A program made the translations under genes and the position numbers. A stretch of DNA of 12,029 nt from Ilumatobacteraceae bacterium (GTDB lineage: Bacteria; Actinomycetota; Acidimicrobiia; Acidimicrobiales; Ilumatobacteraceae): NCBI GenBank assembly GCA_016650435.1, contig JAENVT010000224.1, positions 1-12,029 of the forward strand, in the 5' to 3' direction. Positions within the stretch are counted from its first letter, which is position 1, and every line of letters begins with the position of its first letter. Of the stretch, positions 300 through 12,029 are shown one piece after another. The notes beneath the pieces are model-generated. The model saw only the letters and a list, made by a program, of their open reading frames with translations, made no database searches and was not told the origin of the DNA.

Positions 300-316
300 C
301 TTGGTGCCTCCGACTC

Positions 317-340
317 ACATCCGCGTAACTACGGCAATGT
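317..340. promoter_or_regulatory. 24-bp two-part palindrome, candidate operator in the merR leader
   Basis: Two inverted repeats share one centre (328.5): ACAT (317-320) with ATGT (337-340), and CGTA (324-327) with TACG (330-333) around a central AC. The three bases between the arms on each side do not pair. The site lies between the proposed TTGACC/TAGCCT promoter and the GGAGG ribosome site of the left-edge merR gene. That position suits autoregulation by a MerR dimer or repression by another dimeric regulator. The dyad is directly visible; the role is inference. Confidence 0.4.
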
Positions 341-350
341 AAGGACTGCC

Positions 351-379
351 AGGCTAGGCGACGAACTGGTCCAGGTCAA
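351..379 (-). promoter_or_regulatory. Candidate sigma-70-type promoter for the left-edge merR gene
   Basis: On the minus strand TTGACC (379-374) is followed after exactly 17 bp by TAGCCT (356-351), close to the housekeeping consensus. Transcription would start near 344, giving a leader of about 45 nt with the palindrome at 317-340 and GGAGG at 311-307. This suggests the second merR gene can be expressed apart from the upstream operon. Confidence 0.45.
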
Positions 380-388
380 ACACCACAG

Positions 389-404
389 GCGCGATCATTC
401 GCGC
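389..404 (-). terminator. Short GC stem-loop after the DUF151 gene, weak terminator candidate
   Basis: GCGCGA (389-394) and TCGCGC (399-404) form a perfect 6-bp stem around TCAT, 10 nt beyond the nuclease stop codon. The minus-strand sequence after it (CTGTGGTGTTTGACC) has only a weak T run, so termination would be poor. It also lies just upstream of the -35 element of the next promoter. It could be an attenuating or mRNA-end structure rather than a true terminator. Confidence 0.25.
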
Positions 405-413
405 TGACGGTGC

Positions 414-911
414 TCAGGCGTCGAAGTCTTCCGGCTTGATCTCGTCGAGGAAGTCGCGGAATTCGTCCAGGATCGCCTCGTCCTCGGGCTCGTCATCGGT
501 CAGACCGTCGGCAGCAACCATGCCGACTTCGTCGAGCAACGACTCTTCGGCATAGATCGTCGTGCCGGTGCGGCAGGCCACTGCGATGGCATCGGATGGC
601 CGGCACGAGACGACCGATTCGGTGCCGCTGACGCGCAGATGCAGCTCGGCGTAGAACGTGTGATCGCGGATCTCGGTGACGACAACTTTGTCGAGAGTCG
701 TGTCGGTGCTGCGCAGCAACTCGACGATCAGGTCGTGCGTCATCGGTCGTGGGGCGACGATGCCCGACAACGCGGTGTGAATAGCAGAAGCCTCGGGAGA
801 CCCGATCAGGATCGGCAACACGCGATGCGGCTCGGGCTGCTCGCGCAAGATGACCACTGGCGTGTTGGCGGGTACCTCAACACGCACACCGACCAACTCC
901 ATCGCGATCAC
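414..911 (-). CDS. Bifunctional nuclease family protein (DUF151/BFN), Rv1829-like
   Basis: Member of the BFN/DUF151 family, named after plant proteins with both RNase and DNase activity; the role in Actinobacteria is poorly known. The 165-residue protein begins MELVGVRVEVPANTPVVILR after a three-residue extension. It contains the family core: LPILIGSPEASAIHTALSG, PRPMTHDLIVELL, FYAELHLRV and the SCRPSDAIAVACR block near residues 103-113. The tail (about 135-165) is very acidic (DDEPEDEAILDEF). Two starts are possible. GTG at 911 has TACGCT ending 6 nt before it, matching the leaderless pattern seen at other genes here. ATG at 902 is three codons in and gives a better family-like N-terminus. 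Neither has a Shine-Dalgarno. It lies between two merR genes, as in M. tuberculosis. Family assignment is strong; substrate unknown. Confidence 0.88.
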   Translation of the reverse strand: MIAMELVGVRVEVPANTPVVILREQPEPHRVLPILIGSPEASAIHTALSGIVAPRPMTHDLIVELLRSTDTTLDKVVVTEIRDHTFYAELHLRVSGTESVVSCRPSDAIAVACRTGTTIYAEESLLDEVGMVAADGLTDDEPEDEAILDEFRDFLDEIKPEDFDA

Positions 912-917
912 GATCGG

Positions 918-923
918 AGCGTA
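918..923 (-). promoter_or_regulatory. Candidate -10 hexamer TACGCT for leaderless DUF151 mRNA
   Basis: Minus-strand TACGCT ends 6 nt before the GTG at 911. With no Shine-Dalgarno present, this geometry would place transcription start at or next to the start codon. No convincing -35 is seen. The identical hexamer stands before the phosphatidyltransferase gene. Confidence 0.3.
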
Positions 924-960
924 CCCCGTGGTGGTTGGCCCGCACCGGTCGGTTCGAAAA

Positions 961-1854
961 TCATCCGTCGAGGTGGTGACTCAGCGCCGAGTGCACGATC
1001 GCTGAGCGCAATTCGCCACCAAGCGCGGCAAGCGAGGACAGCGTGTCGACAGCCTGCTGACGGGCTTGCGGATTTCGCTGACGCAGAAGCGGCAGGATCA
1101 TCTGCTCGAACAGCGACGCTTCGCGTTCGGCGGCCTGGCGCCATGCCTTCAGGTGCCGGCCGCCGACACCATGTTGCATGAACCTGGCCGCAGCTTGGGC
1201 AATGGCGACGTCGCACGCCGTGTACATCGTTGCCGCGCCGCTGCCCTTCCCGTTCAGCAGTCCGTATGACTCGAGCTCGGCGAGTTGTGGCTCGGTCAGT
1301 TCGGCGAGATGACAGAGGTCGGCTGCCGAGTAACTGTCGCTGCGGTGAACCTGTGAAGTTGAGTCAGCGGCAGCACCGCCGGTGGGCCGTGAAGCTGGAT
1401 CCGCTGCGGGAACTGCAACCGAGGGTGTCGGTGGCGCAGCGACGCCGGCGATGATCGCGTGTTGCTGCGTGGGCATTGGCGTGTCGGTGGTGACGAGACC
1501 GCGATCGCGATCTTCGAGCACGCTGTCGTCGTCCGAACCCTCGGCTGACTGGAGATTGCGGATGCCTCGCGGCGGCGTGGTGGGCCCGGTTGGATCCTCG
1601 ATCGCCCCGCTCTCCAAGCGATCCCGAATAACGCGCAGCGGCAGGAAATTTTCGCGCTGTTCGCGCAGGATGACTCGGAGCAGATCGACGTCGTTGTCGT
1701 AGAACTTTCGATAGCCACTCGCCGTACGCTCGGGATCGATCAGGCCTTGGCTCTCGAGAAATCGAATCTTGGAGATGGTCACGTCGGGGAACTCCTCGAG
1801 CAGGAGACCGAGTACTTCGCCAATGGACAGGTAGGGACGCTCTTGCATGATCAT
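961..1854 (-). CDS. MerR-family regulator with long disordered linker, Rv1828-like
   Basis: Transcription factor of the Rv1828 subgroup of MerR proteins (297 residues; Rv1828 is about 247 by recollection). Residues 8-82 are the MerR winged helix: YLSIGEVLGLLLEEF, ISKIRFLESQGLI, the SGYRKFY wing and the RVIRDRL helix. Residues 85-172 are a Pro/Ala/Asp/Thr-rich linker with no obvious fold, which explains the extra length. Residues 175-297 are the C-terminal sensory or dimerisation part (SYSAADLCHLAELTEPQLAE...YGLL), a second helical module typical of this subgroup. The start ATG at 1854 lies 3 bp past the FHA stop, with a second ATG at 1848. Neither has a Shine-Dalgarno or a nearby TANNNT, so it is probably translated by coupling from the FHA gene. 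Its neighbours suggest a link to control of glycine/central metabolism, but that is inference. Confidence 0.9.
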   Translation of the reverse strand: MIMQERPYLSIGEVLGLLLEEFPDVTISKIRFLESQGLIDPERTASGYRKFYDNDVDLLRVILREQRENFLPLRVIRDRLESGAIEDPTGPTTPPRGIRNLQSAEGSDDDSVLEDRDRGLVTTDTPMPTQQHAIIAGVAAPPTPSVAVPAADPASRPTGGAAADSTSQVHRSDSYSAADLCHLAELTEPQLAELESYGLLNGKGSGAATMYTACDVAIAQAAARFMQHGVGGRHLKAWRQAAEREASLFEQMILPLLRQRNPQARQQAVDTLSSLAALGGELRSAIVHSALSHHLDG

Positions 1855-1857
1855 GTA

Positions 1858-2346
1858 TCAGCCGTCTGACCGCTCGAAGAAGACGAGACGAAACTTGCCG
1901 ACTTGCAACTCATCTCCTTGGTGCAGGAGAACTTCGTCGTCGATCCGCGCGGCGTTGAGGTATGTGCCGTTGAGGGAACCCGCGTCGCGGACGACGTAGC
2001 CGTTGTCGGTTCGCTCGACCTCTGCATGGCGACGCGAAACGGTGATGTCGTCGAGGCTGATCTCGCTGTCGGGATGACGGCCGAGACGGGTGAGTTGGTC
2101 GTGCAACGCAAACGCGTCGCCGGCCTGTGAACCGGAGCGCACGATCAACGAGGCCACACCAGTCGCGAGATCGCCGACGCTGACGACGACGTCGTCTTCG
2201 GGCCCCGCAGCATCCTGCAAGGGATCGACCTTGGCGAGCGTGATCGTGTGGTCGGCGATGCTGTCGAGCACGCTGCCACACGATGAACAGAACCCGGATT
2301 CCGGTGGGTTCCTGTGGCCGCATTGGTTGCAAAACACGTAGGCCAT
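1858..2346 (-). CDS. garA: Zinc-ribbon plus FHA-domain protein, GarA/OdhI-like
   Basis: Phospho-threonine-binding signalling protein in the position of garA (Rv1827). GarA/OdhI, controlled by Ser/Thr kinases such as PknG, inhibits 2-oxoglutarate dehydrogenase and regulates glutamate metabolism. The 162-residue protein starts MAYVFCNQCG. Residues 6-23 form a CxxC...CxxC zinc ribbon (C6, C9, C20, C23). Residues 65-157 are the FHA domain, with G89-R90, the S104-R105-R106-H107 block and N126-G127-T128, the phosphopeptide-contacting positions. Between them DHTITLAKVDP (32-42) lies where GarA carries its phosphorylated Thr-Thr motif, so T34 and T36 are candidate sites. The ATG at 2346 starts the zinc ribbon; upstream in-frame residues look non-coding. 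It has no Shine-Dalgarno but TAGTCT ends 7 nt before it. FHA identity is firm; the GarA role is inferred from synteny. Confidence 0.88.
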   Translation of the reverse strand: MAYVFCNQCGHRNPPESGFCSSCGSVLDSIADHTITLAKVDPLQDAAGPEDDVVVSVGDLATGVASLIVRSGSQAGDAFALHDQLTRLGRHPDSEISLDDITVSRRHAEVERTDNGYVVRDAGSLNGTYLNAARIDDEVLLHQGDELQVGKFRLVFFERSDG

Positions 2347-2353
2347 GTGCAGG

Positions 2354-2359
2354 AGACTA
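2354..2359 (-). promoter_or_regulatory. Candidate -10 hexamer TAGTCT overlapping the gcvH stop codon
   Basis: The gcvH stop TAG (2359-2357) is the first half of TAGTCT, which ends 7 nt before the FHA start codon. This would allow a leaderless transcript starting at the FHA gene inside the operon. A clear -35 at normal spacing is absent (TTGGCT is 20 bp away). Confidence 0.3.
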
Positions 2360-2737
2360 ACCGTCGATGAGAGCTTGATAGCCAACGGCGTCGAGCAGGC
2401 CGTCGATGTCGGCCGGATTGCTCATCTCGATCTCGCAGATCCAGCCAGCACCGTACGGATCGGAGTTCAGCGCATCCGGTCCGTTGGCGAGCTCATCGTT
2501 GACGGCGACCACGGTTCCCGCGACGGGTGCATAGATGTCGCTGACAGATTTGGTGCTCTCGACCTCGCCGAAACTGTCGCCGGCCGTCACGTTCGCACCC
2601 ATCGCGGGCACCTGCACGTACACAACATCGCCCAGCGCGTCTTGGGCGTAGTCGGTGATTCCAATGCGAGCGCGGGTGCCGTCGACGGCTATCCACTCGT
2701 GGTTGCTGGAGTACAGGAGGTGGCCGGGTACCGTCAT
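2357..2737 (-). CDS. gcvH: Glycine cleavage system H protein (lipoyl carrier)
   Basis: Lipoate-carrying H protein of the glycine cleavage system. It shuttles the aminomethyl group from P protein to T protein and is reoxidised by L protein in the cytosol. The 126 residues match the family length. Diagnostic parts are HEWIAVDGTRARIGITDYAQ at 13-32, the LGDVVYVQVPAMG strand, and GEVESTKSVSDIYAP at 57-71 with lipoylated K63. The C-terminal half has the expected NDELANGPDALNSDPYG...GWICEIE. The ATG at 2737 gives the standard MTVPGHLLYS start. GGAG lies too close to act as a Shine-Dalgarno, while TAGTCT ends 8 nt upstream. The frame stays open far upstream inside pgsA, but that part is a shadow. 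It sits 11 bp after pgsA and 10 bp before the FHA gene. The gcvP and gcvT genes are not in the window. Confidence 0.96.
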   Translation of the reverse strand: MTVPGHLLYSSNHEWIAVDGTRARIGITDYAQDALGDVVYVQVPAMGANVTAGDSFGEVESTKSVSDIYAPVAGTVVAVNDELANGPDALNSDPYGAGWICEIEMSNPADIDGLLDAVGYQALIDG

Positions 2738-2745
2738 GGCTCCGC

Positions 2746-2751
2746 AGACTA
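2746..2751 (-). promoter_or_regulatory. Candidate -10 hexamer TAGTCT overlapping the pgsA stop codon
   Basis: The phosphatidyltransferase stop TAG (2751-2749) begins TAGTCT, ending 8 nt before the gcvH ATG. It is the same hexamer, used in the same way, as at 2354-2359. No recognisable -35 element precedes it. Confidence 0.3.
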
Positions 2752-3336
2752 GCGGGCCGCTTCGCGCCCCTCGCGCAGACTCCTGCGGATGGTCGGGACA
2801 TATGTCACCGCGGTGTAGTAGCTCAGGATCAGTCCGGGAATTCCGAGGATCCACGCGGCGATCTCGAAGCCGAGATGGCCCGGGAAAGCGCTCGAGCCGA
2901 GCATGAAACCAGGAAACGCGAACATCAACAGGAACGTTGCCAACTTGCCCCAATAGGTGACATCGAAGCGCCTCATTCCGAAGAGCAAGGTGGCCAAGGC
3001 GACCGTTCCGCCGAAGACAATCTCGCGGATGACAACGGCCCAGCAGATCCACAACGGTGCCGCTCCGTCGATGATGATGCCGCCGATGCCGACGATGAAC
3101 AACAGCCGGTCGGCTGTGGGATCGAAGATCTTGCCGAACTCGCTGGTTTGATGCAGGCGACGCGCCAACCATCCATCGACCCAGTCGGTCGCGCCGAGCC
3201 CACCGAGCAGCCAAGCCGCGCCAGCACGGTTGTCGCGGCCGAACAACAAATACAGGAACAACGGAATGCAGCACAGTCGAAACAGAGTGAATGCATTCGG
3301 CACCGTGAGGTAGCGGTTCGGCGCCATTGTCTCCAT
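2749..3336 (-). CDS. pgsA: CDP-alcohol phosphatidyltransferase (PgsA family)
   Basis: Integral membrane enzyme that moves a phosphatidyl group from CDP-diacylglycerol to an alcohol, most likely glycerol-3-phosphate (phosphatidylglycerolphosphate synthase). From the ATG at 3336 it has 195 residues. The active-site signature is complete: D51xxD54G, A58-R59, G68, D72 and D76 within ATDWVDGWLAR...FGKIFDPTADR. Several hydrophobic membrane helices are visible: about 16-33, 37-50, 78-120 as two segments, 130-150 and 160-180. Two starts compete. ATG 3336 has TACGCT ending 7 nt before it, as for a leaderless mRNA. ATG 3327 has GGAG only 3 nt upstream, too close. It is the first gene of the minus-strand operon and diverges from the HIT gene. 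The family is certain; the acceptor alcohol could also be inositol phosphate. Rv1822 (pgsA2) is the positional equivalent in M. tuberculosis. Confidence 0.92.
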   Translation of the reverse strand: METMAPNRYLTVPNAFTLFRLCCIPLFLYLLFGRDNRAGAAWLLGGLGATDWVDGWLARRLHQTSEFGKIFDPTADRLLFIVGIGGIIIDGAAPLWICWAVVIREIVFGGTVALATLLFGMRRFDVTYWGKLATFLLMFAFPGFMLGSSAFPGHLGFEIAAWILGIPGLILSYYTAVTYVPTIRRSLREGREAAR

Positions 3337-3343
3337 GTGGTCG

Positions 3344-3353
3344 AGCGTACATT
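3344..3353. promoter_or_regulatory. Overlapping divergent -10 hexamers between pgsA and the HIT gene
   Basis: Only 23 bp separate the two start codons (3336 minus, 3360 plus). On the minus strand TACGCT (3349-3344) ends 7 nt before the pgsA ATG. On the plus strand TACATT (3348-3353) ends 6 nt before the HIT ATG. The two hexamers overlap by two bases, so both genes may be leaderless and compete for polymerase. A weak plus-strand -35 (TTGTCT, 3327-3332, 15 bp spacer) lies inside pgsA. Confidence 0.35.
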
Positions 3354-3359
3354 CGTACC

Positions 3360-3755
3360 ATGACCACAATCTTCAGCAGGATCATCGCCGGCGAGATTCC
3401 CGGCACGTTCGTGTACCGCGACGATCGCTGTGTGGCGTTCATGTCGATCAACCCGCTGGCACGCGGCCATGTGCTCGTCGTTCCGATCGACGAGGTCGAT
3501 CATTGGATCGATGCGTCGCCGGACCTCGTGGCTCATCTGTTCGAGGTCACGCATCGAATTGGCCGAGCACAGCGGCAGGTGTTCGACTGCGAGCGCGTGG
3601 GTGTGATCATCGCCGGCTACGAAGTCCCGCACGCCCACATCCACGTGATCCCAACCGAAAACATGAGTCAACTGTCGTTCGAGAATGCGGCTGCGTCAGT
3701 CGATCGCGACGAGATGGAAACTGCCGCAGCGGCGATTCGCAACGCGCTGACCTAG
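3360..3755 (+). CDS. HIT-family nucleotide hydrolase/transferase
   Basis: Small cytosolic histidine-triad protein of the HINT type. Such proteins hydrolyse AMP-linked substrates such as AMP-NH2 or aminoacyl-adenylates; the true substrate here is unknown. The 131-residue protein begins MTTIFSRIIAGEIPGTFVYR, a classic HINT start. It shows the NPLARGHVLVVP block (31-42) and the catalytic triad PHAHIHVIP, with H91, H93 and H95. Its length is typical for bacterial HINT proteins. The ATG at 3360 is preferred because the family N-terminus begins exactly there; the frame extends upstream but encodes nothing family-like. No Shine-Dalgarno is present; TACATT ends 6 nt upstream. It is the only plus-strand gene between minus-strand blocks, and its TAG stop overlaps the stop of the convergent SRAP gene. 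Confidence 0.93.
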   Translation: MTTIFSRIIAGEIPGTFVYRDDRCVAFMSINPLARGHVLVVPIDEVDHWIDASPDLVAHLFEVTHRIGRAQRQVFDCERVGVIIAGYEVPHAHIHVIPTENMSQLSFENAAASVDRDEMETAAAAIRNALT

Positions 3756-4468
3756 TCGATCGGCTCGACGAGTTCGGGGCCCCTGTTACGCACGTTGTTG
3801 ACGTCGGTCGACACCTTGTGCATCGTCAACAGGTTGTCGGGCGCTGGCACCAACAGACGTTGCAGCTCCTCGACATTGTTGTTGCCTGGATCAAGCCATT
3901 CCTGCCATGCAGTAGCTGGGAGCATCACCGGCATCCGGTTGTGAACTGGTTCCATCGTCTTGTTGGCGGATGTCGTGACAATGGTGCAACTGTGCAGCCA
4001 CGGTGCATCAGGGCCGGCGGTCTTGTCGCGCCACGTCGTCCACAGCCCGGCCACGGCCAGGGGTTCGCCATCGAGGCGATGGATGAACATTGGTTGCTTG
4101 CTGAGCTTGCCGGCCTTGGTGAGCGCGGCGCCTTCGCTCCCCTGCTGCCATTCGTAGAAGCCGTCCATCGGAATGATGATTCGCTGCTTCTTGAACACCG
4201 ACTTGAAGGCCGGCTTTTCCGCCAGTGTTTCGGAGCGGGCATTGATCATCTTCGAGCCGATCTTGATGTCCTTCGCCCACACCGGAACGAGCCCCCAGTG
4301 GAAAACCTGCAGCGTCGGCTGCCCGTCGGGCCCGGCCACGACTCCGTAGATGTCGCTGGTGGGTGCCGTGTTGTAGTTGTCCGGCAGCGACGTCTGCGGA
4401 TCAAATGACGCGCCGAAGTACTCAGCGATCCGTTCTGGGGAACTGGAGGACACGAACCTGCCGCACAT
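3752..4468 (-). CDS. SRAP-domain abasic-site processing protein (YedK/HMCES family)
   Basis: Protects abasic sites in single-stranded DNA by forming a covalent thiazolidine link through its N-terminal cysteine, and can slowly release it. The 238 residues cover one full SRAP domain. All key residues are visible. C2 of MCGRFV becomes the N-terminus after Met removal. N33 lies in NYNTAPT. R78 and E80 lie in MINARSET (74-81). E106 lies in GFYEW and H176 in VHNRMP. The ATG at 4468 is fixed by the need for Cys at position 2. There is no Shine-Dalgarno; TAGGCT ends 8 nt before the start. It lies 24 bp after the pilus operon on the same strand, so read-through is possible, but no functional link is implied. 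The C-terminal NVRNRGPELVEPID is the usual family ending. Confidence 0.95.
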   Translation of the reverse strand: MCGRFVSSSSPERIAEYFGASFDPQTSLPDNYNTAPTSDIYGVVAGPDGQPTLQVFHWGLVPVWAKDIKIGSKMINARSETLAEKPAFKSVFKKQRIIIPMDGFYEWQQGSEGAALTKAGKLSKQPMFIHRLDGEPLAVAGLWTTWRDKTAGPDAPWLHSCTIVTTSANKTMEPVHNRMPVMLPATAWQEWLDPGNNNVEELQRLLVPAPDNLLTMHKVSTDVNNVRNRGPELVEPID

Positions 4469-4476
4469 CGGCGACC

Positions 4477-4482
4477 AGCCTA
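4477..4482 (-). promoter_or_regulatory. Candidate -10 hexamer TAGGCT before the SRAP gene
   Basis: Minus-strand TAGGCT ends 8 nt before the SRAP ATG, in the 24-bp gap after the PilX-like gene. It suggests an independent leaderless transcript. No -35 is apparent, and any -35 would lie within the pilus gene. Confidence 0.25.
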
Positions 4483-4492
4483 AGGCCGAAGA

Positions 4493-5941
4493 TCAGATGG
4501 TCTCCACCACGTACGAGCCGATTGCGTAGTCGCCGGTGTCGTTGACCTTGACAACGGCCGTTGCGCTGAGCTTTGGGTTGTCGCTGACGGTCGTGGAGAC
4601 GATCTTGAAGGTCTTTTGCACGACCTGGTTGACGAGACCCATAGCGAAGGTAGCCGGTCGATCGACCGAGACGTTGATCTGCGCAGCCAGCAGACCGCCG
4701 ACCAGCTTGACGGTCTTGCCGACGGTCGCTCCCGTAGCGTCGATCACGCTGACGGTGCCTTGCGGTGTCGCTATGTAGCTCTCGATGTCGACGTTTGTCG
4801 TGGCGGCGCCGCTGAGGTTGATGTCGACGATCGGCAAAGCCGGAGGCGCGGGTGCGACCGTTGGTACGAGCGTCGAGGGCTTGAGCGTTGATCCGCTCGC
4901 CAGCGAGGGCGGCGTGGTGGACACGGTGGCTGCCGGGACGAAGATCTGTGGTTGGTTCAGATCGCCGATCGTCGTGCCGCTCAACGTGCCGTTGACGGAC
5001 ATGATCGACACGTTTTCCGAACTCTTCACGCCTGTTTCCGTCGGTGCGACCAGCCGCTTGTTGAACGTCAGGCTGGGACCGGTGCTCGTCGAGGCAGTCA
5101 CGTTGTCGACGACCAGTCGCCCTGCGCCACCGAACACGAACGTTGCGCCGGCACCGCTCTGGTTGTGGTTGAACGGTGCCGAGTAGTCGGCATAGCTCAC
5201 CGAATCGAGGTCATCCGCGCAGCCCTCCGTAGCGCCCAGTCCGACCACGACCTTGGCATCACCGCTGATACGGATGACGTTCTCGAAGTAGTACACGCCC
5301 GAGACGAAGTAGTAGTTGGAATTGGCGGTCAACGTCAGCGGGTCGGTGTACTTGCCGGGAAAGAACACCTTGCACGCACCGTACGCGCTCGGCATGTTGT
5401 ACGGCGTGGTGCTGCGCAGGTCGAGTGGTGTGGCTGGCAGCAGCGGAGCCCACACCTTGTTTCCAGTGGCTGTCGGGGTGGAATCGACGCTAAACCACGC
5501 GTTTGGGTTCGCCTGGCCGGACCCGGCGTACATGGTGCCACTCATCCCCGAAGGAAGGACCGAGCCGACCCACGTGCTGGCGCCGGCGAGCCACAGGCTG
5601 CCGGGATCCTGGGCGAGGGTGTCGTTGGTCGTCGTGCACTTGGTCGTGACGGCGACGTCGAGACCGGGCGAAGCCAGCGTGACGGCGGTCGTCAGACCCG
5701 AGCTCTTACACGCCTGGTAGAGACCCTTGCCGTTGGCCAACACGGTGCGCAGGCCACCCTTCACGGCCTCGGAACGCAGCACCTTGTTCTGCACGCTCCG
5801 CCCGTTCTGGGTGACCGTCATGGTGTAGTTGAGGGCCGGGATGACGATGAGGGCCGCCAGGATGATCATCACCAAGGCGAGGATCAATGCGACACCCTCG
5901 TCGCGGTCTGGTTCGGTCGAGACGTTCGGATCACGATTCAC
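4493..5941 (-). CDS. PilX-like minor pilin with beta-rich ectodomain
   Basis: Third gene of the pilus operon: a 482-residue membrane-anchored, surface-exposed protein. Residues 1-16 (VNRDPNVSTEPDRDEG) form a short polar leader. Residues 17-39 (VALILALVMIILAA...) are one hydrophobic helix, followed by NYTMTVTQNGRSVQNK, as in PilX-type minor pilins. A prepilin cleavage after G16 is possible, but the usual Glu at mature position 5 is missing, as in many PilX proteins. Residues 190-300 are Gly/Val/Tyr-rich with repeated short strands (YYFVSGVYYFENVIRISG), suggesting a beta-helix-like fold. Residues 341-370 are a Pro/Ser/Thr linker, and 371-482 form a second beta-rich domain. The GTG at 5941 overlaps the preceding gene's TGA as GTGA, a translational-coupling junction, which decides this start. 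Adhesin or tip-complex role is inferred from context. Confidence 0.8.
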   Translation of the reverse strand: MNRDPNVSTEPDRDEGVALILALVMIILAALIVIPALNYTMTVTQNGRSVQNKVLRSEAVKGGLRTVLANGKGLYQACKSSGLTTAVTLASPGLDVAVTTKCTTTNDTLAQDPGSLWLAGASTWVGSVLPSGMSGTMYAGSGQANPNAWFSVDSTPTATGNKVWAPLLPATPLDLRSTTPYNMPSAYGACKVFFPGKYTDPLTLTANSNYYFVSGVYYFENVIRISGDAKVVVGLGATEGCADDLDSVSYADYSAPFNHNQSGAGATFVFGGAGRLVVDNVTASTSTGPSLTFNKRLVAPTETGVKSSENVSIMSVNGTLSGTTIGDLNQPQIFVPAATVSTTPPSLASGSTLKPSTLVPTVAPAPPALPIVDINLSGAATTNVDIESYIATPQGTVSVIDATGATVGKTVKLVGGLLAAQINVSVDRPATFAMGLVNQVVQKTFKIVSTTVSDNPKLSATAVVKVNDTGDYAIGSYVVETI

Positions 5942-8900
5942 GGCGTGAACGTCACGTTCTGGATACACGACACGGCCTGGTTGGCGCCGACGGTGAGTCG
6001 GATGGTGTCCCAGGGGCCAGGGACGTCGACGATCGTCGGAGTGATGGCAACGCCGCCCGCCTTGCAGGTCCAAGCGGGACTGCTCGGTGCGTAGTGGTCC
6101 TGAAGGGTGGAGGTTTGAGTTTGCCGGATCTCAGCCGTGATCGATCCGCCGGAAGGGATGGCAAAGTCGAATGTGCCGCTGCGCTTCGAGCCACTCGTAT
6201 CCACCTTGGTGTTGTCGAGGGCGTTCAGGTACGTGAACGTATCGTTGGCGGGCGTTGTGCCGCCGACTCGAGTCTGCAGAGTGACAGTGCCGCCGCATTG
6301 GCCGAGGGCGATCGCCTTGAGAGCCGCCTGCACATCGCTCCACGCCGTAGTCGTGTACATGTTGGCGACCTCGGCGTTGATCACGTTGCCACCGGCATCC
6401 TTGATGGGATCAACGATCCCAGACGGATCGATGAGATCGCCAAGGATCTGGCGGTTCGTCTTCGAGTAAGTACGTGTGGCGTCGTATCCGGTGTACGGCG
6501 GTACGTACACCTTGGTCGCCGTCCATCCATCACTGTTGTTGGTCGGATCGATAGCGGTCTTGCCTGCGACATAGCTGGCCTCGTCGCTCACCTCGGACGA
6601 ACTGAACGGCGCCGTGTACGAGCGGTACGTCCTCCACCCGCTGGGATTGCCGCCGACGCCGGCGTTATAAGCGGCCTGGGTCGAGGCCTCCCAGCTGCTG
6701 TAGGGGGCCGTATACGAGGGAGCGATGCGCCAACCGTCGGTCGAGTCAGTTCCTGGCGTCGTGTTGCTCTTGTTGTACGAGGCAAGGGTGTATCCCCCAA
6801 CCCAGCTGGCGGCTCCGCCCGCATACGTTGTACGCCAGCCGTCGGTGGAACTCGAGTTGACGTTGCCCGTGTCATAGGCGGCCTCCGTGGAGGTGATCCA
6901 CGACGTGTTGGCCGTTGTGCTCCCGACGAACCATTGGAAGCCGTCGGTGGAGTTGTTGGTCGTCGTGGCGTCACCCAGGGTGTTGCTCTTGTTGTAGTCC
7001 GCAAGAGTGATGCTGGTCCATGGGGTCTGCGAAGCGCCCGTCACGATCGTCTGGTAGCCGTCGGTCGCCGTGTTGTTGACGTTGTTGGTGTCGTAGATCG
7101 CCTGTGTCGTGTTCTGCCACAGGGTGTACGGAGAACTCGCCACGTTGGCGATCTGCCAGCCGTCGGTCGAATCTGAGGGGGTTATGTTGCTCTTGTTGAA
7201 TGAGGTGAGGCTGTATCCCCCCACCCAGCTGCCGCCACCTGGATATGTCGTACGCCAGCCGTCGGTGGACGCCGACGTGCTGTTGTTCGTGTTGTAGGTG
7301 TTCTCTGAGACCGACTCCCAGCTGTCGTATGGGGCGGTGTAGGACTGGCTGATCATCTGCCACCCATCGGACGAGTCCGTCGTGGTGTTGCTCGCCAGGT
7401 ACTCAGCCAGTGTGACGGTGTTCCAGGTACCGCTCAACGATCCGTTGAGCCTCATGCGGAACCCGTCGTTGCCACTGTCGTTGTTGTTGATGTTGGCCTT
7501 GTCGTACTGGTCCTGCGTGATGGTGGTCCAGCCCCCGCTGCCCAGCGAGCCGCCGGTCAGGCGTGCACGCCAGCCGTCGGTCAACTCGCCCGGGTCGGTG
7601 TTGTTGGTGAGGAATTGCAGCTGGGTTCTCGACGACCAGGAGCTGCCGTTCCATTGCTCGTATGCCAGGCCGGAGTTGCTTATCTCGAAGACGATCTTGC
7701 TGTTTCGCTGGTACGTGGCGTGGTAGCCCTTTTCGAAGACGACGGTACTGGCCTTTTGATAGTCGAGGTGGTAGCCCTGCTGAGGCTGGACGTTGTTGGC
7801 TCGTTGGTATTCAAAGCCCTGCTGGAAGACGAGGTTGTTGGCTCGTTGATAGTCGTCGTGATAACCCTTCTCCCACACATCGTGGTACCACTTCAGCCAG
7901 TCGATCAGGTGATAGCCGGCATTGACGTCGGTCCAGTTCGACGACAGCGTGGTATCGGAGCCGACGAACACACCGATGTAGTCGACCTGCACGCCGAATT
8001 CACGGGCGATGCGGTTGGCCCTGTTCCAGGAGCGCTGGAAATAACCAGTGCCATTCGGCGTTTGGAGGCCTGTGTCGTCGGGAAATGACACGCCGGCGGG
8101 CAAGGCGGTTGAACCGGATTGCCCGGCGACTCCGCCCAATCGGTCGTAGCTCGGAATGCCATCGGTGAAGAAGATGACCTTGGAAGGCAAGCTGGCCTGG
8201 ATCGTTCCATCGCTGTTGCGGAAGGCCCGGTAGAGGGAGTCCTCCCAGTTCGTTGCATCGTTGATGGAATCGATCTTCTGTGCCACTACGCCCGTCGAGG
8301 TGGTGCCGCCGTTGACAAAGACTTTGAGGTCACTGACGTCGGTCTCTTTGAGCATGTCGAAGTACCTGGAGCCCGTGGGGGCGACACCACCGAGGACTGC
8401 GCCGACCCAGCCGAACTTGGTGAGCTCCAACTTCACCGGCGTGCCGGCAAACGTGTCGATCATCGATGTGATTGCGGCACGAACCGTCGTCATGTTTGTG
8501 GGATCGGCCCTGTTGATGGAGCCGGAGATGTCGATCACCATGCCGAAGTTGCCACCGCAGCGGGTGCGGGCAGCGGTGAGCGTCTGGTTGAACGACACGG
8601 AGTTGGTCGCCAGGTCCGGCTTGCGCTCGGTTCCACCGGCGCTGAGGCTGATCTGGTTCTTACCGCCGCCGGATCCGGCCACGTCGCCACCACCGTTGAT
8701 GGTCACGACCACGCGCTGTCCGTTCTTGCTCTTGAAGGTCGGATCGTCGACTGGCGCAGGTGTGCTGCCGGTCGTGTCACCGGGATCGAGTGCTTGGCTG
8801 ACCACCATGATCCAGGTCGGCTTCGTCACGCCCACGATGTAGGGGGTTCCAATCGGCGGTGCGTCGAGATCGTGGAGCACGATGTTCTTTTCACACGTCG

Positions 8901-9333
8901 GCAAACCACCGTTGACGGTCGTGCATTCGACGCGAATCATCTGATACTCGATGCCGACGAGAACATACCGATACGAGACTTTGGTCTCGGTCGGGACGGA
9001 TGTGCCGCCGGAACCTGGCACTGTGCCCTTCCATGTCAACATCAGGGCGTTTGTGCCGCCGACGTCGGCGCCTGCGGGGCAGTTCGGTGCGCACGGTGAC
9101 GCTGCCGGATCGGTGCTGACGGACTCCGCCGACGCCAGGTCGGCAGGCATCCAGATGTTCACGTTCTGCTCGGATCGAGCGTTGTTGGCACGTCCACTGG
9201 TGTTGTCGGACTGCCTGTAAATGACAGTGATCGACATCGACAGCGACGCGATGAGGATCCCGGTGAGCGCCACCGAGATCAAGAGCTCGGGAAGTGTCAT
9301 ACCCGAATCGCGATGTTGCTTGACCCTAGACAT
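5938..9333 (-). CDS. Giant PilW-like prepilin with VWA domain split by tandem DGW repeats
   Basis: A 1131-residue predicted pilus-tip protein. Residues 1-11 are the leader and G11-M12 the class III prepilin cleavage site (DSG|MTLPELLISV, with E16 at mature position 5), followed by a hydrophobic helix to about 38. Residues 40-255 resemble a minor-pilin globular part. Residues 262-460 are a VWA domain: MIDAS residues D268, S270 and S272 (DISGS), a Thr in GGTTST (342-347), D391 (FFTDG), then strand VDYIGVFVG (450-458). The VWA's last helix and strand return only at 962-1021 (QILGDLI...WSDVQAALKAIALGQCGG). Residues 483-960 between them are tandem repeats. Residues 1013-1131 resemble a SpaA-type prealbumin fold, ending in AVSCIQNVTF. 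The ATG overlaps the upstream stop by 8 nt, with AGGTGG about 9 nt upstream. The role is probably adhesion; the ligand is unknown. Confidence 0.85.
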   Translation of the reverse strand: MSRVKQHRDSGMTLPELLISVALTGILIASLSMSITVIYRQSDNTSGRANNARSEQNVNIWMPADLASAESVSTDPAASPCAPNCPAGADVGGTNALMLTWKGTVPGSGGTSVPTETKVSYRYVLVGIEYQMIRVECTTVNGGLPTCEKNIVLHDLDAPPIGTPYIVGVTKPTWIMVVSQALDPGDTTGSTPAPVDDPTFKSKNGQRVVVTINGGGDVAGSGGGKNQISLSAGGTERKPDLATNSVSFNQTLTAARTRCGGNFGMVIDISGSINRADPTNMTTVRAAITSMIDTFAGTPVKLELTKFGWVGAVLGGVAPTGSRYFDMLKETDVSDLKVFVNGGTTSTGVVAQKIDSINDATNWEDSLYRAFRNSDGTIQASLPSKVIFFTDGIPSYDRLGGVAGQSGSTALPAGVSFPDDTGLQTPNGTGYFQRSWNRANRIAREFGVQVDYIGVFVGSDTTLSSNWTDVNAGYHLIDWLKWYHDVWEKGYHDDYQRANNLVFQQGFEYQRANNVQPQQGYHLDYQKASTVVFEKGYHATYQRNSKIVFEISNSGLAYEQWNGSSWSSRTQLQFLTNNTDPGELTDGWRARLTGGSLGSGGWTTITQDQYDKANINNNDSGNDGFRMRLNGSLSGTWNTVTLAEYLASNTTTDSSDGWQMISQSYTAPYDSWESVSENTYNTNNSTSASTDGWRTTYPGGGSWVGGYSLTSFNKSNITPSDSTDGWQIANVASSPYTLWQNTTQAIYDTNNVNNTATDGYQTIVTGASQTPWTSITLADYNKSNTLGDATTTNNSTDGFQWFVGSTTANTSWITSTEAAYDTGNVNSSSTDGWRTTYAGGAASWVGGYTLASYNKSNTTPGTDSTDGWRIAPSYTAPYSSWEASTQAAYNAGVGGNPSGWRTYRSYTAPFSSSEVSDEASYVAGKTAIDPTNNSDGWTATKVYVPPYTGYDATRTYSKTNRQILGDLIDPSGIVDPIKDAGGNVINAEVANMYTTTAWSDVQAALKAIALGQCGGTVTLQTRVGGTTPANDTFTYLNALDNTKVDTSGSKRSGTFDFAIPSGGSITAEIRQTQTSTLQDHYAPSSPAWTCKAGGVAITPTIVDVPGPWDTIRLTVGANQAVSCIQNVTFTP
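6454..7677 (-). repeat. Eleven to twelve tandem DGW repeats (32-39 residues each)
   Basis: In the PilW/VWA protein, units begin at residues 586, 623, 656, 691, 724, 758, 797, 831, 866, 898 and 935, with a degenerate unit at 553-585. Working consensus: DG[WFY][RQ], 10-14 variable residues, W, three residues, T or S, three residues, [YF][ND]xxN, then an Asn/Ser/Thr-rich run ending ST. At DNA level the minus-strand complement of gccgtcggt recurs at the unit starts (about 6730, 6838, 6943, 7058, 7160, 7258, 7575). Units alternate between a YNKSN type and a YDTNN type, and units 5 and 9 are near-copies 420 bp apart. I recognise no named repeat family. Confidence 0.85.
7678..7887 (-). repeat. 16-residue Tyr-His/Tyr-Gln tandem repeat
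   Basis: Residues 483-552 of the PilW/VWA protein hold a short repeat directly before the DGW units: YHDVWEKG, then YHDDYQRANNLVFQQG (491-506), FEYQRANNVQPQQG (507-520, two residues shorter), YHLDYQKASTVVFEKG (521-536) and YHATYQRNSKIVFEIS (537-552). Consensus YHxxYQRxxxxVFexG, rich in aromatic, Gln and charged residues, unlike the Asn/Ser/Thr-rich DGW series. It may form a short stalk or aromatic-lined strand stack. Confidence 0.8.
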
Positions 9334-9823
9334 TGCTCTTGACCACCTGCATCGAACGAGTCACCTTTCCATTGGGACTGGTGATTGTGATCTTCACCAG
9401 TTGGACATCTTTTCCAGCGACACCCGGAGTGCTGCACGCGTCGTTGGGCGCGAGCGGCGTGTTCCAAGTACCGGGTGCAGTCGCATCGACGCCTGGTTTG
9501 TAGAACCAGTACGTTGCGTTTGCTGTAGCGGGATCCCAATTCGCAGCCTGGGCGGCGGCCTTCACGTATTGGTCGTAATTGCACTTCAACGGGGCCCGGT
9601 TGACGCGGTCGGCGGCATTCTGCAACACCGTCTCGATCTGGGCAAGATCTCCGGCCGATGTCGACGCCTTGATGCCGGCAAGCGAGGCATCCATGATCGA
9701 CAACAAGACGGTTGACATCAACGCGATGGTGATGACGACCTCGACGAGGGAGAATCCGTGGTCGCGGGCAGGGGTCATCGGATCGTCGTCCCTGTGCCGT
9801 CGCCTGAGACCTCGAAGCTTCAT
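9326..9823 (-). CDS. PilV/GspI-like type IV prepilin
   Basis: First gene of the pilus operon: a 165-residue minor prepilin exported through the membrane, cleaved by prepilin peptidase and methylated on its new N-terminus. The leader ends HG with cleavage at G23|F24. The mature start FSLVEVVITIALMSTVLLSI has Glu at position 5 and the standard hydrophobic helix. The remaining 115 residues form a small globular part with two Cys (C59 in LKCNYD and one in DACSTPG) that could form a disulphide. ATG 9823 gives a basic 23-residue leader (MKLRGLRRRHRDDD); ATG 9778 would give an 8-residue leader and is a real alternative. Neither has a strong Shine-Dalgarno, though a G-rich stretch precedes 9823. The TAG stop overlaps the next gene's ATG by 8 nt, so the three pilin genes are coupled. 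Confidence 0.88.
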   Translation of the reverse strand: MKLRGLRRRHRDDDPMTPARDHGFSLVEVVITIALMSTVLLSIMDASLAGIKASTSAGDLAQIETVLQNAADRVNRAPLKCNYDQYVKAAAQAANWDPATANATYWFYKPGVDATAPGTWNTPLAPNDACSTPGVAGKDVQLVKITITSPNGKVTRSMQVVKSNV

Positions 9824-9841
9824 TCCCGCCCGTCCCGTTGA

Positions 9842-9855
9842 TCATGGGGGCATGA
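9842..9855. promoter_or_regulatory. Small stem-loop in the pilus operon leader
   Basis: TCATG (9842-9846) and CATGA (9851-9855) pair around GGGG, 19 nt upstream of the PilV-like ATG. On the minus-strand mRNA this would be a hairpin with a C4 loop near the ribosome-loading region. Stability is modest; it is recorded as a possible translation-control element only. Confidence 0.2.
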
Positions 9856-9875
9856 CCAGTCCATGCCTGAATGTC

Positions 9876-9903
9876 CTATCGGTGCAGTGTGCAGGAGGGT
9901 TTA
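9876..9903 (-). promoter_or_regulatory. Sigma-28 (FliA/WhiG)-like promoter facing the pilus operon
   Basis: On the minus strand TAAA (9903-9900) is followed after 16 bp by ACCGATAG (9883-9876). The sigma-28 consensus is TAAA, 15 bp, GCCGATAA, so six of eight -10 bases and all four -35 bases match, with one extra spacer base. The predicted leader to the PilV-like ATG is about 45-50 nt. A nearby TTGACG (9918-9913) has no matching -10 at 16-18 bp, so it is less likely to be used. Confidence 0.4.
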
Positions 9904-9932
9904 GGGAAAAACCGTCAAGGTTTGGTCAGTTG

Positions 9933-9954
9933 ATTCACAAGAGTTCTTGTGAAT
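9933..9954. promoter_or_regulatory. Near-perfect 22-bp palindrome, candidate operator
   Basis: Arms ATTCACAAGA (9933-9942) and TCTTGTGAAT (9945-9954) are exact inverted copies around a central GT. The site sits between a plus-strand TTGATT (9930-9935) and TATGTG (9954-9959), which could be a weak promoter with an 18-bp spacer. It is also upstream of the minus-strand sigma-28-like promoter. Sequence on either side lacks a T run, so it reads as a protein-binding site rather than a terminator. It lies in an AT-rich island (about 9900-9960) of otherwise GC-rich DNA. Confidence 0.5.
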
Positions 9955-9966
9955 ATGTGCGCTCCC

Positions 9967-10065
9967 GCGGCTCGCTCCTGAGCCGCAGGGGTGTGACATC
10001 GGCGACATACCTAGTCGCCGAAGCGGCGACAAATACGCATGTCACCCGATGTGGTGACACACCCC
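9967..10065 (+). ncRNA. Multi-stem structured leader or dyad cluster, unknown class
   Basis: Stem A: GCGGCTC (9967-9973) with GAGCCGC (9980-9986). Stem B: GGGGTGTG (9988-9995) with CACACCCC (10058-10065). Stem C, stacked inside B: ACATCGG (9996-10002) with CCGATGT (10046-10052), leaving GGTGA as a bulge. Stem D: GACAT (10004-10008) with ATGTC (10039-10043). Stem E: GTCGCCG (10014-10020) with CGGCGAC (10024-10030). A competing local hairpin, TGTCACC (10040-10046) with GGTGACA (10053-10059), cannot form together with B, C and D. The layout resembles a switchable leader ahead of the small gene at 10085, but could equally be DNA operators. I do not recognise a named riboswitch. The coding strand is inferred from the downstream gene. 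Confidence 0.45.
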
Positions 10066-10084
10066 AGGGGCGCACACTCATCTC

Positions 10085-10273
10085 ATGTTCCACAACAACC
10101 AGCTCACATCCGCAGTCAGTGCCGATCGCCAGACCCGGCTCCGCAATGCAGCTACTCGGCAGCGACTCGTCCGCCGCAACAAGGCGCCGTCTAACGACGG
10201 GCCGCCGACGGGATTCCTCTCCGTCGTCTGGCCCGACGAAGCGAGCGACCATCGTGAGCACTGCGTCGGCTGA
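10085..10273 (+). CDS. Small basic hypothetical protein (62 aa)
   Basis: Starts MFHNNQLTSAVSADRQTRLR and continues NAATRQRLVRR, then a Pro/Asp-containing tail ending HREHCVG. The pattern of Leu, ADRQ, xLR, NAA, RQRLVRR resembles small Arg-rich proteins often seen as orphan genes in Actinobacteria, as I recall them; their function is unknown to me. Third codon positions are mostly G or C, as in the neighbours. No Shine-Dalgarno is evident: AGGGG at 10066-10070 is 14 nt from the ATG, too far. It ends 25 bp before the chosen start of the LuxR-type regulator and follows the multi-stem structure. The other plus-strand frame in this stretch is also open, so the call is only moderate. Confidence 0.45.
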   Translation: MFHNNQLTSAVSADRQTRLRNAATRQRLVRRNKAPSNDGPPTGFLSVVWPDEASDHREHCVG

Positions 10274-10285
10274 TTCACTCGGAGG

Positions 10286-10291
10286 TATCGT
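10286..10291 (+). promoter_or_regulatory. Candidate -10 hexamer TATCGT before the LuxR-type regulator
   Basis: TATCGT ends 7 nt before the ATG at 10299, matching the leaderless geometry at other genes here and supporting this start. GGAGG at 10281-10285 is 13 nt from the same ATG, too far for normal ribosome binding. No clear -35 is seen. Confidence 0.3.
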
Positions 10292-10298
10292 CGACGCG

Positions 10299-12029
10299 AT
10301 GCTGTCCGGGCGTCAGGGCCTGTCGTCGACAATGGTCGGTCGCGCCGCGGCTCTTGCCAGATTGAGCGGCTTGGTCGAAGCCGTCGAGGTTGCCTCGTGC
10401 GACGGCCCCGAACTGGTGCTCGTGTCGGGCGAGGCAGGTATTGGCAAGACTCGGTTGCTGCGCGAGTTCATCACCCGCCTCCCGGGCACTGTCACGTCGA
10501 TCGTCGCTGCCGCCCAGCCCGGCTCGCTCGGCCGAGCCTTTGATGTTGTCAGCCAGCTCTGCCCAGCGGGTGGTGACCCCGCTCAGGACGTGCTACCGGC
10601 CATCACCGCTGCCGTCGCGGCCAGCACCGTGGTGCTCGTGATCGAAGATCTGCACTGGATCGATGCCGACAGCGCCTACGTATTGGAGCACATCGCCCAG
10701 CAACCATTGCCGCGCCTGGTGATCGTCGGCACGTACCGCCCCAACGACCTTTCTCGCCGCGCTCCGGGAGGCGAGCTGATCGGCCGGCTCGAACGGCAGC
10801 ATTCGGTCGAGCAGGTGCGTCTCGACCGGCTCGATCGTGGCGATGTGGCCACGATGCTCGGCGCGATCGATGGCGCGCTCCCCTCTTCGGCGGCCGTCGA
10901 TGCTGTGTTCAGGCGTAGCGGCGGGGTGCCTTTCGTGATCGAGGAACTGATTCGCTGTTGCGGATACGGCGCCTGTTCCGAGGACCTGCTGACTGTGCAA
11001 CTTCCCTGGTCGCTCGACGAGGCGGTCCGCCAACAACTCGCCGAGATGCCCGTGGCCGAGCGATGCGTTGTTGATGCGCTTGCGGTGTTCGGGGGCTCGG
11101 CAACCTTCGAACTGATTTCGGCGATCTCGGGACTTGACGAAGTGGATCTGTTGGTTGCGCTGCGCGAGCTCGTCGGTCGCTCGATCGTCGTTGAAGTCTC
11201 CGACGATCTCTTCTGGTTCACCCACGCGCTCACCGCCGACAACGTGTACCAACAACTGCTCGGTCGCGATCGCCGCCGACTACACGAGCGGGCGCTCGCG
11301 ACGCTGCGTTCGCAGTCAGGTGCTGACCACGCCTCGCTCGCTCGCCACGCGCAAGGTGCCGGCGCCTTCGACCAGGTTGCCGGAATCGCCCGTGAGGGCG
11401 CACCGCGCTACCTCGCCCGCGGCGCGTCGTTCCAGGCGTTGCGCTTGGCCAGCGACGGACTCGCCGAGGCACCCGACGATCCGCAGCTCCTCGGGGTTGC
11501 CACAGACGCTGCCTGGCGGTTGCAATTCGGCGCCGAGGCGATGGCATACGCGCGTCGCTGGCGCGCCGTCGCGGCGACCGACGTCGATCGCGTTGAGGCG
11601 ATGCGGTTCATCGCCCGGTTCCACCACGAGGAAGGCGCGTACTCCGATCGCGACGCAGCGCTTGACGCGCTGATCGAATTTTCGGCGACGCTGCCCCGCG
11701 GCCTGGCCCTCGGGAGGTCGATGGGGGCCGTTGCCCAGATCATGATGCTGGCCGAGCGACTGAGCGAGGCAATCGAATGGGCCGACCGAACCCTTACCGA
11801 AGCGCGGCGCAATGGCGACGAGTGGCTGATTGCCCAAGCACTGGTCGAGCGCAGCTCGAGCGTCCGCAACGGTGAGACCATTACCGGTTTGCAGCAGGCC
11901 CTGATCGAAGCGCGCAACGCCGCGAATGCCGTTGGTGATGGTGTGCTGGAATGTCGAGCGCTGAACAACCTGCTGACCTTCGTGTCGCCTCATTCCGAGA
12001 TCGGAGCTTGGGCGCGCACGGAACTGGCG
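10299..12029 (+). CDS. LuxR-type large ATP-binding regulator (LAL/MalT-like), C-terminus beyond window
   Basis: Signal-transduction ATPase of the STAND class. ATP-driven oligomerisation exposes a DNA-binding domain, normally a C-terminal LuxR helix-turn-helix, which is not in view. The visible 577 residues show the LAL start MVGRAAALARL (12-22), Walker A GEAGIGKT (44-51), and Walker B VVLVIEDLHWID (111-122). GTYRPND (144-150) then leads to the winged-helix and arm region (about 230-330; LFWFTHALTADNVYQQLL). From about 350 on, helical pairs suit TPR-like sensor repeats. ATG 10299 is preferred (TATCGT 7 nt before it); GTG 10254 and ATG 10332 are alternatives. The Walker A to B distance of about 60 residues is short for the family. 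No stop occurs before the right edge. Effector and targets are unknown; control of the divergent pilus operon is possible but unproven. Confidence 0.88.
   Translation, partial: MLSGRQGLSSTMVGRAAALARLSGLVEAVEVASCDGPELVLVSGEAGIGKTRLLREFITRLPGTVTSIVAAAQPGSLGRAFDVVSQLCPAGGDPAQDVLPAITAAVAASTVVLVIEDLHWIDADSAYVLEHIAQQPLPRLVIVGTYRPNDLSRRAPGGELIGRLERQHSVEQVRLDRLDRGDVATMLGAIDGALPSSAAVDAVFRRSGGVPFVIEELIRCCGYGACSEDLLTVQLPWSLDEAVRQQLAEMPVAERCVVDALAVFGGSATFELISAISGLDEVDLLVALRELVGRSIVVEVSDDLFWFTHALTADNVYQQLLGRDRRRLHERALATLRSQSGADHASLARHAQGAGAFDQVAGIAREGAPRYLARGASFQALRLASDGLAEAPDDPQLLGVATDAAWRLQFGAEAMAYARRWRAVAATDVDRVEAMRFIARFHHEEGAYSDRDAALDALIEFSATLPRGLALGRSMGAVAQIMMLAERLSEAIEWADRTLTEARRNGDEWLIAQALVERSSSVRNGETITGLQQALIEARNAANAVGDGVLECRALNNLLTFVSPHSEIGAWARTELA

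Follow-up and report, generated by a model that had tools for sequence, protein, structure and literature searches.

The window analysed here, a stretch of 12,029 nucleotides from an Ilumatobacteraceae bacterium (GenBank assembly GCA_016650435.1, contig JAENVT010000224.1, positions 1 to 12,029 of the forward strand), carries on its minus strand a gene for a prepilin with a von Willebrand factor A (VWA) domain. In this protein, an array of tandem repeats, the DGW units, is by prediction seated inside the VWA fold. The array changes length between relatives that are otherwise much alike, and it is probably swapped between them. This kind of protein is known already, through the VWA modular pilin PilB and the VWA finger of ComC; the DGW repeat and its turnover look new. 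A sequence-only reading of the window had described the array and its place in the fold, both of which are well borne out here, in sequence and by prediction; the present analysis adds a GYHxDYQR ribbon ahead of the array, a division of the units into two types, the operon and the evidence of array turnover.

The insert and its predicted place in the VWA fold

An AlphaFold (AF2) model of the full VWA prepilin was built on 78 sequences, namely the window protein and 77 of the 119 other listed relatives, and reached a mean predicted local distance difference test score (pLDDT) of 77.8 and a predicted template modelling score (pTM) of 0.51. In the model, the VWA fold is broken after the penultimate strand, at residues 451-457, and is picked up again at residues 960-1013. 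The insert between them begins at about residue 464 (nt 7944) and has a size of about 490 residues, opening with a 35-residue strand (464-498) and closing with the strand 949-959. Structural alignment shows that solved VWA domains superpose on the model across the insert, over residues ~256-1014. For instance, the alignment with 4fx5 spans 180 residues (2.3 A), and that with the integrin I domain 1bho_1 spans 176/189 residues, likewise at 2.3 A. Since this coverage requires elements behind the insert, the VWA fold in the model is incomplete before residue 480. Foldseek returned 19 PDB matches at E <= 0.001, with titles nearly all of VWA or I domains; one, a B19V capsid entry, is uninformative. 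In the separate list of structural alignments, the absence of a family such as RrgA does not exclude that family.

These results refine the sequence-only reading in several respects. Its position for the insertion, after the penultimate strand, is retained, while the single final helix expected afterwards is replaced by two helices with a strand between them (Table 1). Its coordinates, 6454..7677, fit the DGW array (residues 553-960); the full insert begins earlier, at ~residue 464. The arm was also said to project from the side of the domain. In the usual VWA topology, however, the loop between beta-5 and helix 6, in which the insert lies, is found on the metal-site face.

A natural control is provided by the locus L034, in which the motifs VVGVIVG and LGDVV are bridged by 25 residues; in the window protein, 505 residues lie between YIGVFVG and LGDLI, motifs paired by eye with those of L034. 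The metal ion-dependent adhesion site (MIDAS) was expected to be left intact, and its residue set of DxSxS, Thr and Asp is, by sequence, complete in the window protein: D268, S270, S272, T361 and D391 occur in 78/78 rows of the alignment. Pfam VWA_2 scores 20 bits on residues 255-561, below its cut-off of 27, and the whole protein gives no match; PF00092 is precomputed for many of the listed relatives. The VWA assignment comes from the predicted fold, although the Pfam VWA/VWA_2 cut-off is not reached.

The identity of the protein as a prepilin also holds, with the NCBIfam model TIGR02532 exceeding its cut-off (17.5 vs 16.3 bits). This match supplies, at the level of sequence, the class III signal and N-methylation motif of a modular type IV pilin, and the extra functional module on the pilin module is present as well. 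The N-methylation motif PF07963 reaches 19.7 bits on the whole protein, below its cut-off of 21.2, and 22.2 bits on residues 1-254. The PilW family is not among the Pfam and NCBIfam matches, and the putative PilW assignment is based on the position of the gene between PilV-like and PilX-like genes.

The first segment of the insert is a ribbon rich in Tyr, His and Gln, with 8/16-residue repeats such as GYHDDYQR/ANNLVFQQ. Over residues 472-552, identity at a lag of 16 residues is 0.246, a value reached by 0/2000 shuffles, and G473, Y474 and H475 are conserved in 77, 77 and 73 of the 78 rows. Some relatives carry YHYTYTHG-like or RSFHYQ-like versions of the ribbon (L016, L021, L017). Additionally, L016 (825-4091) and L021 (9980-13657) contain another repeat of ~27 residues (..YSAPFT..GSGYSSSDPSWAISAKQ..) in the same stretch of the insert. 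Judging by these two loci, repeats of more than one family can apparently be housed in the VWA socket.

The DGW units and the turnover of the array

The repeat was assessed with a unit profile made from 400 of 622 units, from which the window protein and its 13 closest listed relatives (P0003-P0015) had been left out. This held-out profile finds 12 positive domains in the window protein, with scores of 8.8 to 38.9 bits, within residues 564-953 (564-583, 586-619, 623-655, 656-690, 691-723, 724-757, 758-790, 806-830, 831-862, 866-892, 899-926 and 935-953), and only negative scores in both flanks of the array. When the array was shuffled 1000 times, the top-scoring domain had 8.2 bits, barely exceeded by the weakest real unit, and 15 shuffles contain a domain of at least 5 bits. 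The eleven clear units (DG[WFY]/SGW) and one degenerate unit noticed in the sequence are thereby recovered, all above the best shuffle, and the unit length of 32-39 residues agrees with the start-to-start spacings of the ten complete units (37, 33, 35, 33, 34, 39, 34, 35, 32 and 37). Lag autocorrelation, tried as proof of the DGW repeat, was discarded: the best lag was reached by 30/2000 shuffles, and a VWA control did equally well (14/2000).

Within the units, counted over 300 examples of type A and 300 of type B, the central Trp is kept in 98-99%, the Tyr in 84-91% and the Asn behind the Tyr in 98-100%; D and G are fixed by construction in these counts, the units having been cut at D[GN]-aromatic. 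Type A has a consensus of 32 residues, and type B one of 34 residues with a Pro-aromatic motif. In the 137 proteins where one unit or more could be measured, the number of complete units per array ranges from 1 to 13; 89 of these proteins have an A-block followed by a B-block (either may be absent), 38 alternate, and 10 do neither, among them the window protein (AABABAAABB) and P0003. Alternation of A and B shows no excess when the types are called by the P[YFW] motif (302 vs 296.5 expected, sd 10.2); called by profile score, it amounts to 313 vs 282.6 (sd 10.1), with profiles built from units that were themselves split by P[YFW]. In the full model, the better-modelled units read strand-strand-helix, and the core of the predicted unit may be made up of its conserved aromatic residues.

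Of the 363 residues 586-948 of the array, 39% are Ser, Thr or Asn, and none is Cys. The same segment (6490-7578) contains 17 N-x-S/T sequons. Glycosylation of the array is possible, given these sequons and the richness in Ser, Thr and Asn. Moreover, a 62-nt direct repeat within the array (Table 1) is, by its sequence, likely to be the trace of a duplicated block of units.

The proposal that the repeat belongs to no named family withstood comparison with curated profiles, as no family in Pfam, NCBIfam or PHROGs covers the array. Pfam gives 0 families for residues 553-1131 and 0 for the window row of a 17-row array alignment; over all 17 rows, 20 families match weakly, of which DUF7311 is the commonest, in 3 rows (best E 0.037), and DUF4177 scores best, in a single row (E 0.001), and typed consensus strings of the units reach a best E of 0.032. 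NCBIfam gives 0 families for the window row and 3 elsewhere that each match a single row (best E 0.014), PHROGs 0 matches, and PDB sequences a single match at E 0.43. A Baculo_p47 match of a typed octad string (25.8 bits, cut-off 25) was set aside as an artefact of the artificial repetitive string. In fold searches of the full model, the match lists were filled by VWA domains, and a model of the array only (pLDDT 41.6) was too poor for such a search. A literature search with subscription papers largely outside its reach found no paper uniting Acidimicrobiia, pilin and von Willebrand; none uniting "von Willebrand factor A", inserted, tandem repeats, pilus and adhesin; and none uniting pilin, "vWA domain", repeats and Actinobacteriota.

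The length of the insert was measured between flank profiles in 148/154 proteins, six being omitted with one flank not found. It ranges from 12 to 580 residues; the lowest value, for L034, is the distance that separates two local matches. Close relatives can differ mainly in the array. P0001 and P0003, for example, have flanks 99% and 95% identical and arrays 72% identical, of 462 and 332 residues. Both flanks are at least 90% identical in 24 pairs, 5 of which differ by at least 25 residues in array length. After 7 loci nearly equal to a listed protein had been dropped, 14 such pairs were left: array identity is below 80% in 6 and at least 80% in 8, and the length difference is at least 25 residues in 4.

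The opposite pattern, an array more alike than both flanks by more than 3 points, occurs in 237/10878 pairs. The clearest instance joins P0004 and P0010, with arrays 85% identical over 450 residues, 40-column blocks up to 98% and flanks at 74/77%, while the flanks of P0004 are closest to P0003 (89/95%). The array tree places P0004 with P0009/P0010 (84/93), and the flank tree with P0001/P0003 (99/99). In the approximately unbiased test, flank data reject P0004 with P0009/P0010 (p-AU 0.0001), a group named after the similarity was seen. On this sequence evidence, one array looks transplanted. More broadly, nearest neighbours by array and by flanks conflict in 24/141 proteins, and in 9/24 the array identity lies above both flanks; in 20/24, the best array match is less than 75% identical, a range in which the likeness may reflect convergence to the unit consensus.

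The operon, its relatives and their distribution

The VWA gene lies in an operon of pilin-related genes (Table 1). The PilV-like gene overlaps it by 8 nt, and a PilV-like relative stands directly upstream in 33/34 loci, the exception being L034. If the GTG at 5941 is the start of the PilX-like gene, there is an overlap of 4 nt with the stop of the VWA gene. A PilX-like relative follows directly downstream in 28/34 loci; the remaining 6 have a contig end within 439 nt. The PilX-like protein has no NCBIfam match at E <= 0.001, and the name is one that we take from an N-terminal motif together with the position of the gene.

Table 1. Features of the VWA prepilin gene and its neighbours in the window
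Feature	Residues	Position (nt)	Strand	Basis
VWA-bearing prepilin, 1131 aa		5938..9333	minus	open reading frame; NCBIfam TIGR02532 17.5 bits, cut-off 16.3
Pilin N-terminal helix	14-68	9130..9294	minus	AF2 model; N_methyl motif
VWA fold (predicted), first part, beta-1 to beta-5	261-457	7963..8553	minus	AF2 model and structural alignments
MIDAS DxSxS	268-272	8518..8532	minus	D268, S270, S272 in 78/78 rows
MIDAS Thr361	361	8251..8253	minus	78/78 rows
MIDAS Asp391 (FFTDG)	391	8161..8163	minus	78/78 rows
GYHxDYQR-type ribbon, first insert segment	464-552	7678..7944	minus	strand 464-498 in model; 16-residue lag
Degenerate N-terminal unit	564-583	7585..7644	minus	10.3 bits, held-out profile
Eleven DGW units	586-953	6475..7578	minus	profile; last is a half unit leading into the last strand of the insert
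62-nt direct repeat, copy 1		6755..6816	minus	81% identical to copy 2, 423 nt apart
62-nt direct repeat, copy 2		7178..7239	minus	pairs with 6755..6816
VWA fold (predicted), remainder	helix 960-968, strand 992-995, helix 998-1013	6295..6456	minus	AF2 model and structural alignments
C-terminal part, mostly beta	1015-1131	5941..6291	minus	AF2 model
PilV-like prepilin		9326..9823	minus	TIGR02532 20.5 bits (cut-off 16.3); TIGR02523 PilV 21.4 bits (below cut-off 52.2)
PilX-like protein		4493..5941	minus	position; N-terminal motif

Genes for the pilus machinery occur near some of the relatives. A T2SSF-family gene lies within 20 kb on the same contig in 6/10 genomes, the family being broad and found in 13/14 control genomes. 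In L001, PilT scores 446.6 bits (cut-off 319.1), and a PilB-like ATPase reaches 526.1 bits, short of the cut-off of 675.65; L008 has GspF/PilC-like and GspE/PilB-like proteins, both below their cut-offs. Elsewhere in the window, a long open frame on the plus strand (9579-12029), perhaps that of a large ATP-binding regulator, contains a Walker-A-like GEAGIGKT stretch and runs off the window, and a protein with a zinc ribbon and an FHA domain is encoded at 1858-2385 (minus).

Protein searches scored a limited number of candidates within set length ranges. With the window protein as query, 242 matches at E <= 0.001 were obtained among 7996 candidates scored, of which 120 are listed, its own record included; the listed relatives with a named organism belong mostly to Ilumatobacteraceae, Actinomycetia or Actinomycetota. 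A genome scan yielded 34 loci from 106 pattern matches, and 34/34 are metagenome-assembled genomes of Actinomycetota or groups within, 16 of them titled Acidimicrobiaceae, Acidimicrobiales, Ilumatobacteraceae, Ilumatobacter or Ferrithrix. The array alone finds 89 proteins among 7991 scored; 22 had not been seen before, and the VWA flank profile matches in 22/22. A search for shorter proteins gave 14 matches, 12 of them new; 11/12 match a family flank, and P0155 matches units only. In genomes reached through the loci, the array profile matches 8/10, always in the VWA pilin gene. Within the searches made, the DGW unit has turned up only with this one VWA pilin. The whole protein matches 34/296 genomes from the class of one of those ten, 9 of them strongly (E < 1e-30), and many of the others cover the pilin part only; strong or complete matches in frames of 570-664 residues occur in G036, G012, G282 and G288. 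Array-poor relatives seem common.

Two further observations concern individual relatives. The genome of L034 (G010) has two neighbouring VWA pilin relatives on contig C30 (20042-21073 and 24213-25997), with frames of 737 and 633 residues. In L019 (9959-13473) and several proteins, including P0128 and P0154 (each recorded on a 462,633-base contig), the reading frame is broken inside the insert; these breaks could be assembly indels or phase variation, and assembly errors explain them equally well. Neither 50,697 phage records nor a search for a plasmid origin gave a match.

Proposed role of the arm and its alternatives

On balance, we lean towards reading the protein as a modular minor pilin that takes the PilW position and sits on the tip of a retractile type IVa pilus, with a variable, exchangeable ligand-binding arm in a VWA loop. 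As a member of a PilV-PilW-PilX set, it would be located at the tip, with the VWA domain as carrier and its beta-5/helix 6 loop enlarged into the arm. This arm would comprise the Tyr/His/Gln-rich beta ribbon with its 8-/16-residue repeats, followed by DGW units of 32-39 residues strung together in a chain; each unit is probably a minidomain of two strands and a helix, built around the conserved aromatic residues. It would offer a surface rich in Trp, Tyr, Asn and Thr near the metal site and bind environmental ligands, while duplication and loss of units, together with exchange of whole arrays between relatives, would alter reach and specificity and leave the pilus machinery constant. In other bacteria, minor pilins and PilY1 form a tip complex, and on this model the gene is read as a PilW-like pilin merged with a VWA adhesin.

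Several points weigh against this explanation. All the evidence for it is computational. With a pTM of 0.51, the position of the arm relative to the VWA domain is uncertain, and confidence in the unit fold is moderate, with pLDDT blocks of 64-90 for most units and 33-56 at residues 651-720. Five units modelled alone did not fold (pLDDT 41.6, 17 rows), and in that model one short helix per unit recurs in 5/5 units. The unit is rare, being found in 4/296 genomes of one class (at most 12 candidates scored per genome), all four known from the loci. The grouping of P0004 by its flanks is not rejected on array data (p-AU 0.151), and the Ser/Thr/Asn content of 39% would equally suit a passive spacer.

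Such a spacer would be a hydrophilic stalk that keeps the ribbon or another part off the VWA core, with a sequence that is irrelevant and drifts. The composition without Cys, the wide variation in length and arrays often less alike than their flanks agree with it; however, the central Trp, Tyr and Asn are kept in A and B units, as suits a folded unit, and the insert exits and re-enters one VWA loop and is therefore not a spacer between two domains, which makes a stalk unlikely. Retractile pili are common phage receptors, and the array might instead serve as a decoy or in antigenic variation, its swaps being an escape from phages or grazers that bind pilus tips and not a change of ligand. Turnover of the array between more constant flanks is consistent with this, while the lack of a match among the phage records says little about receptors; we consider it distinctly unlikely.

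The mosaic pattern might also have arisen by convergence, with units drifting to one consensus so that distant arrays become alike with no transfer between them. The 20 conflicts with best array matches below 75% and the p-AU of 0.151 point this way, but the arrays of P0004 and P0010 are 85% identical, in blocks up to 98%, with flanks at 74/77%, and flank data reject their grouping, albeit for a group chosen post hoc. A rather small chance is left to convergence, and exchange would account for the pattern. It is highly improbable that the array is the target of a diversity-generating retroelement. A hypervariable, Asn-rich segment in a likely adhesin would be a fitting target, yet reverse transcriptase PF00078 occurs in 1/10 genomes (all ten being fragmented assemblies), on contigs that do not carry the VWA gene, and much of the variation consists of whole units.

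The favoured reading of a ligand-binding arm has parallels in known systems, and by analogy with them a role of the insert as adhesin arm is likely. PilB of Streptococcus sanguinis (PMC8179133) shows that a VWA domain grafted on a pilin can act in adhesion, modelled at the tip; processed PilB is 454 residues long and bears two arms. The window protein differs in its single loop with a tandem-repeat insert of ~490 residues, variable in length between relatives, and its adhesin role is putative. ComC (PilY1) of A. baumannii, a type IVa pilus tip protein, has an antiparallel Tyr-rich beta finger within its VWA fold, with lineage-specific insertions and a gene cassette replaced at least twice, and deletion of the finger equals loss of the gene for twitching, DNA uptake and adhesion, according to PMC10374093. 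In contrast to the window protein, in which VWA is fused to a pilin and carries a ribbon and a repeat array, ComC is not a pilin, the deleted finger comprises residues 166-256, and the accessible part of PMC10374093 mentions no tandem units. The C-terminal beta-propeller domain of PilY1 has no Pfam match at E <= 1 in the whole window protein.

VWA domains also occur in the adhesins of sortase and type V pili. RrgA is a VWA pilus adhesin with arms, as cited in PMC8179133. SpaC (6m48/6m3y), PitA (7w6b) and Mfa5 (6tnj) are among the structural matches of the model; they and RrgA belong to other pilus types. We know of no DGW units in RrgA, SpaC, PitA or Mfa5. The integrin C-helix, placed between beta-5 and helix 6, is likewise an extra element near the metal site, and the window insert also precedes helix 6; the C-helix is one short helix with no repeat array. 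In collagen-binding integrin I domains, it lies close to the MIDAS and becomes a turn of helix 6 on ligation, as described in PMC3726769. More speculatively, because VWA helix 6 follows on the arm without a break in the model, a load on the arm could gate the metal site, as the integrin C-helix does.

The finding bears on the open question of how many binding specificities can arise from one pilus machine. One scaffold presents a graded series, from the 25-residue loop of L034 up to arrays of 13 complete units, and some pairs differ almost only in the array; the effect of the VWA arm is therefore directly testable. Beside the finger of Acinetobacter ComC, this is a second example of a type IVa pilus protein whose VWA domain acts as a socket for inserted segments. 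Tentatively, and with doubt outweighing confidence, the type IVa pilus tip of Acidimicrobiia may be seen as an exchangeable tool head, in which the swapping of an arm inside a folded domain retargets one machine and a new DGW repeat fold grows, shrinks and moves from lineage to lineage as a cassette.
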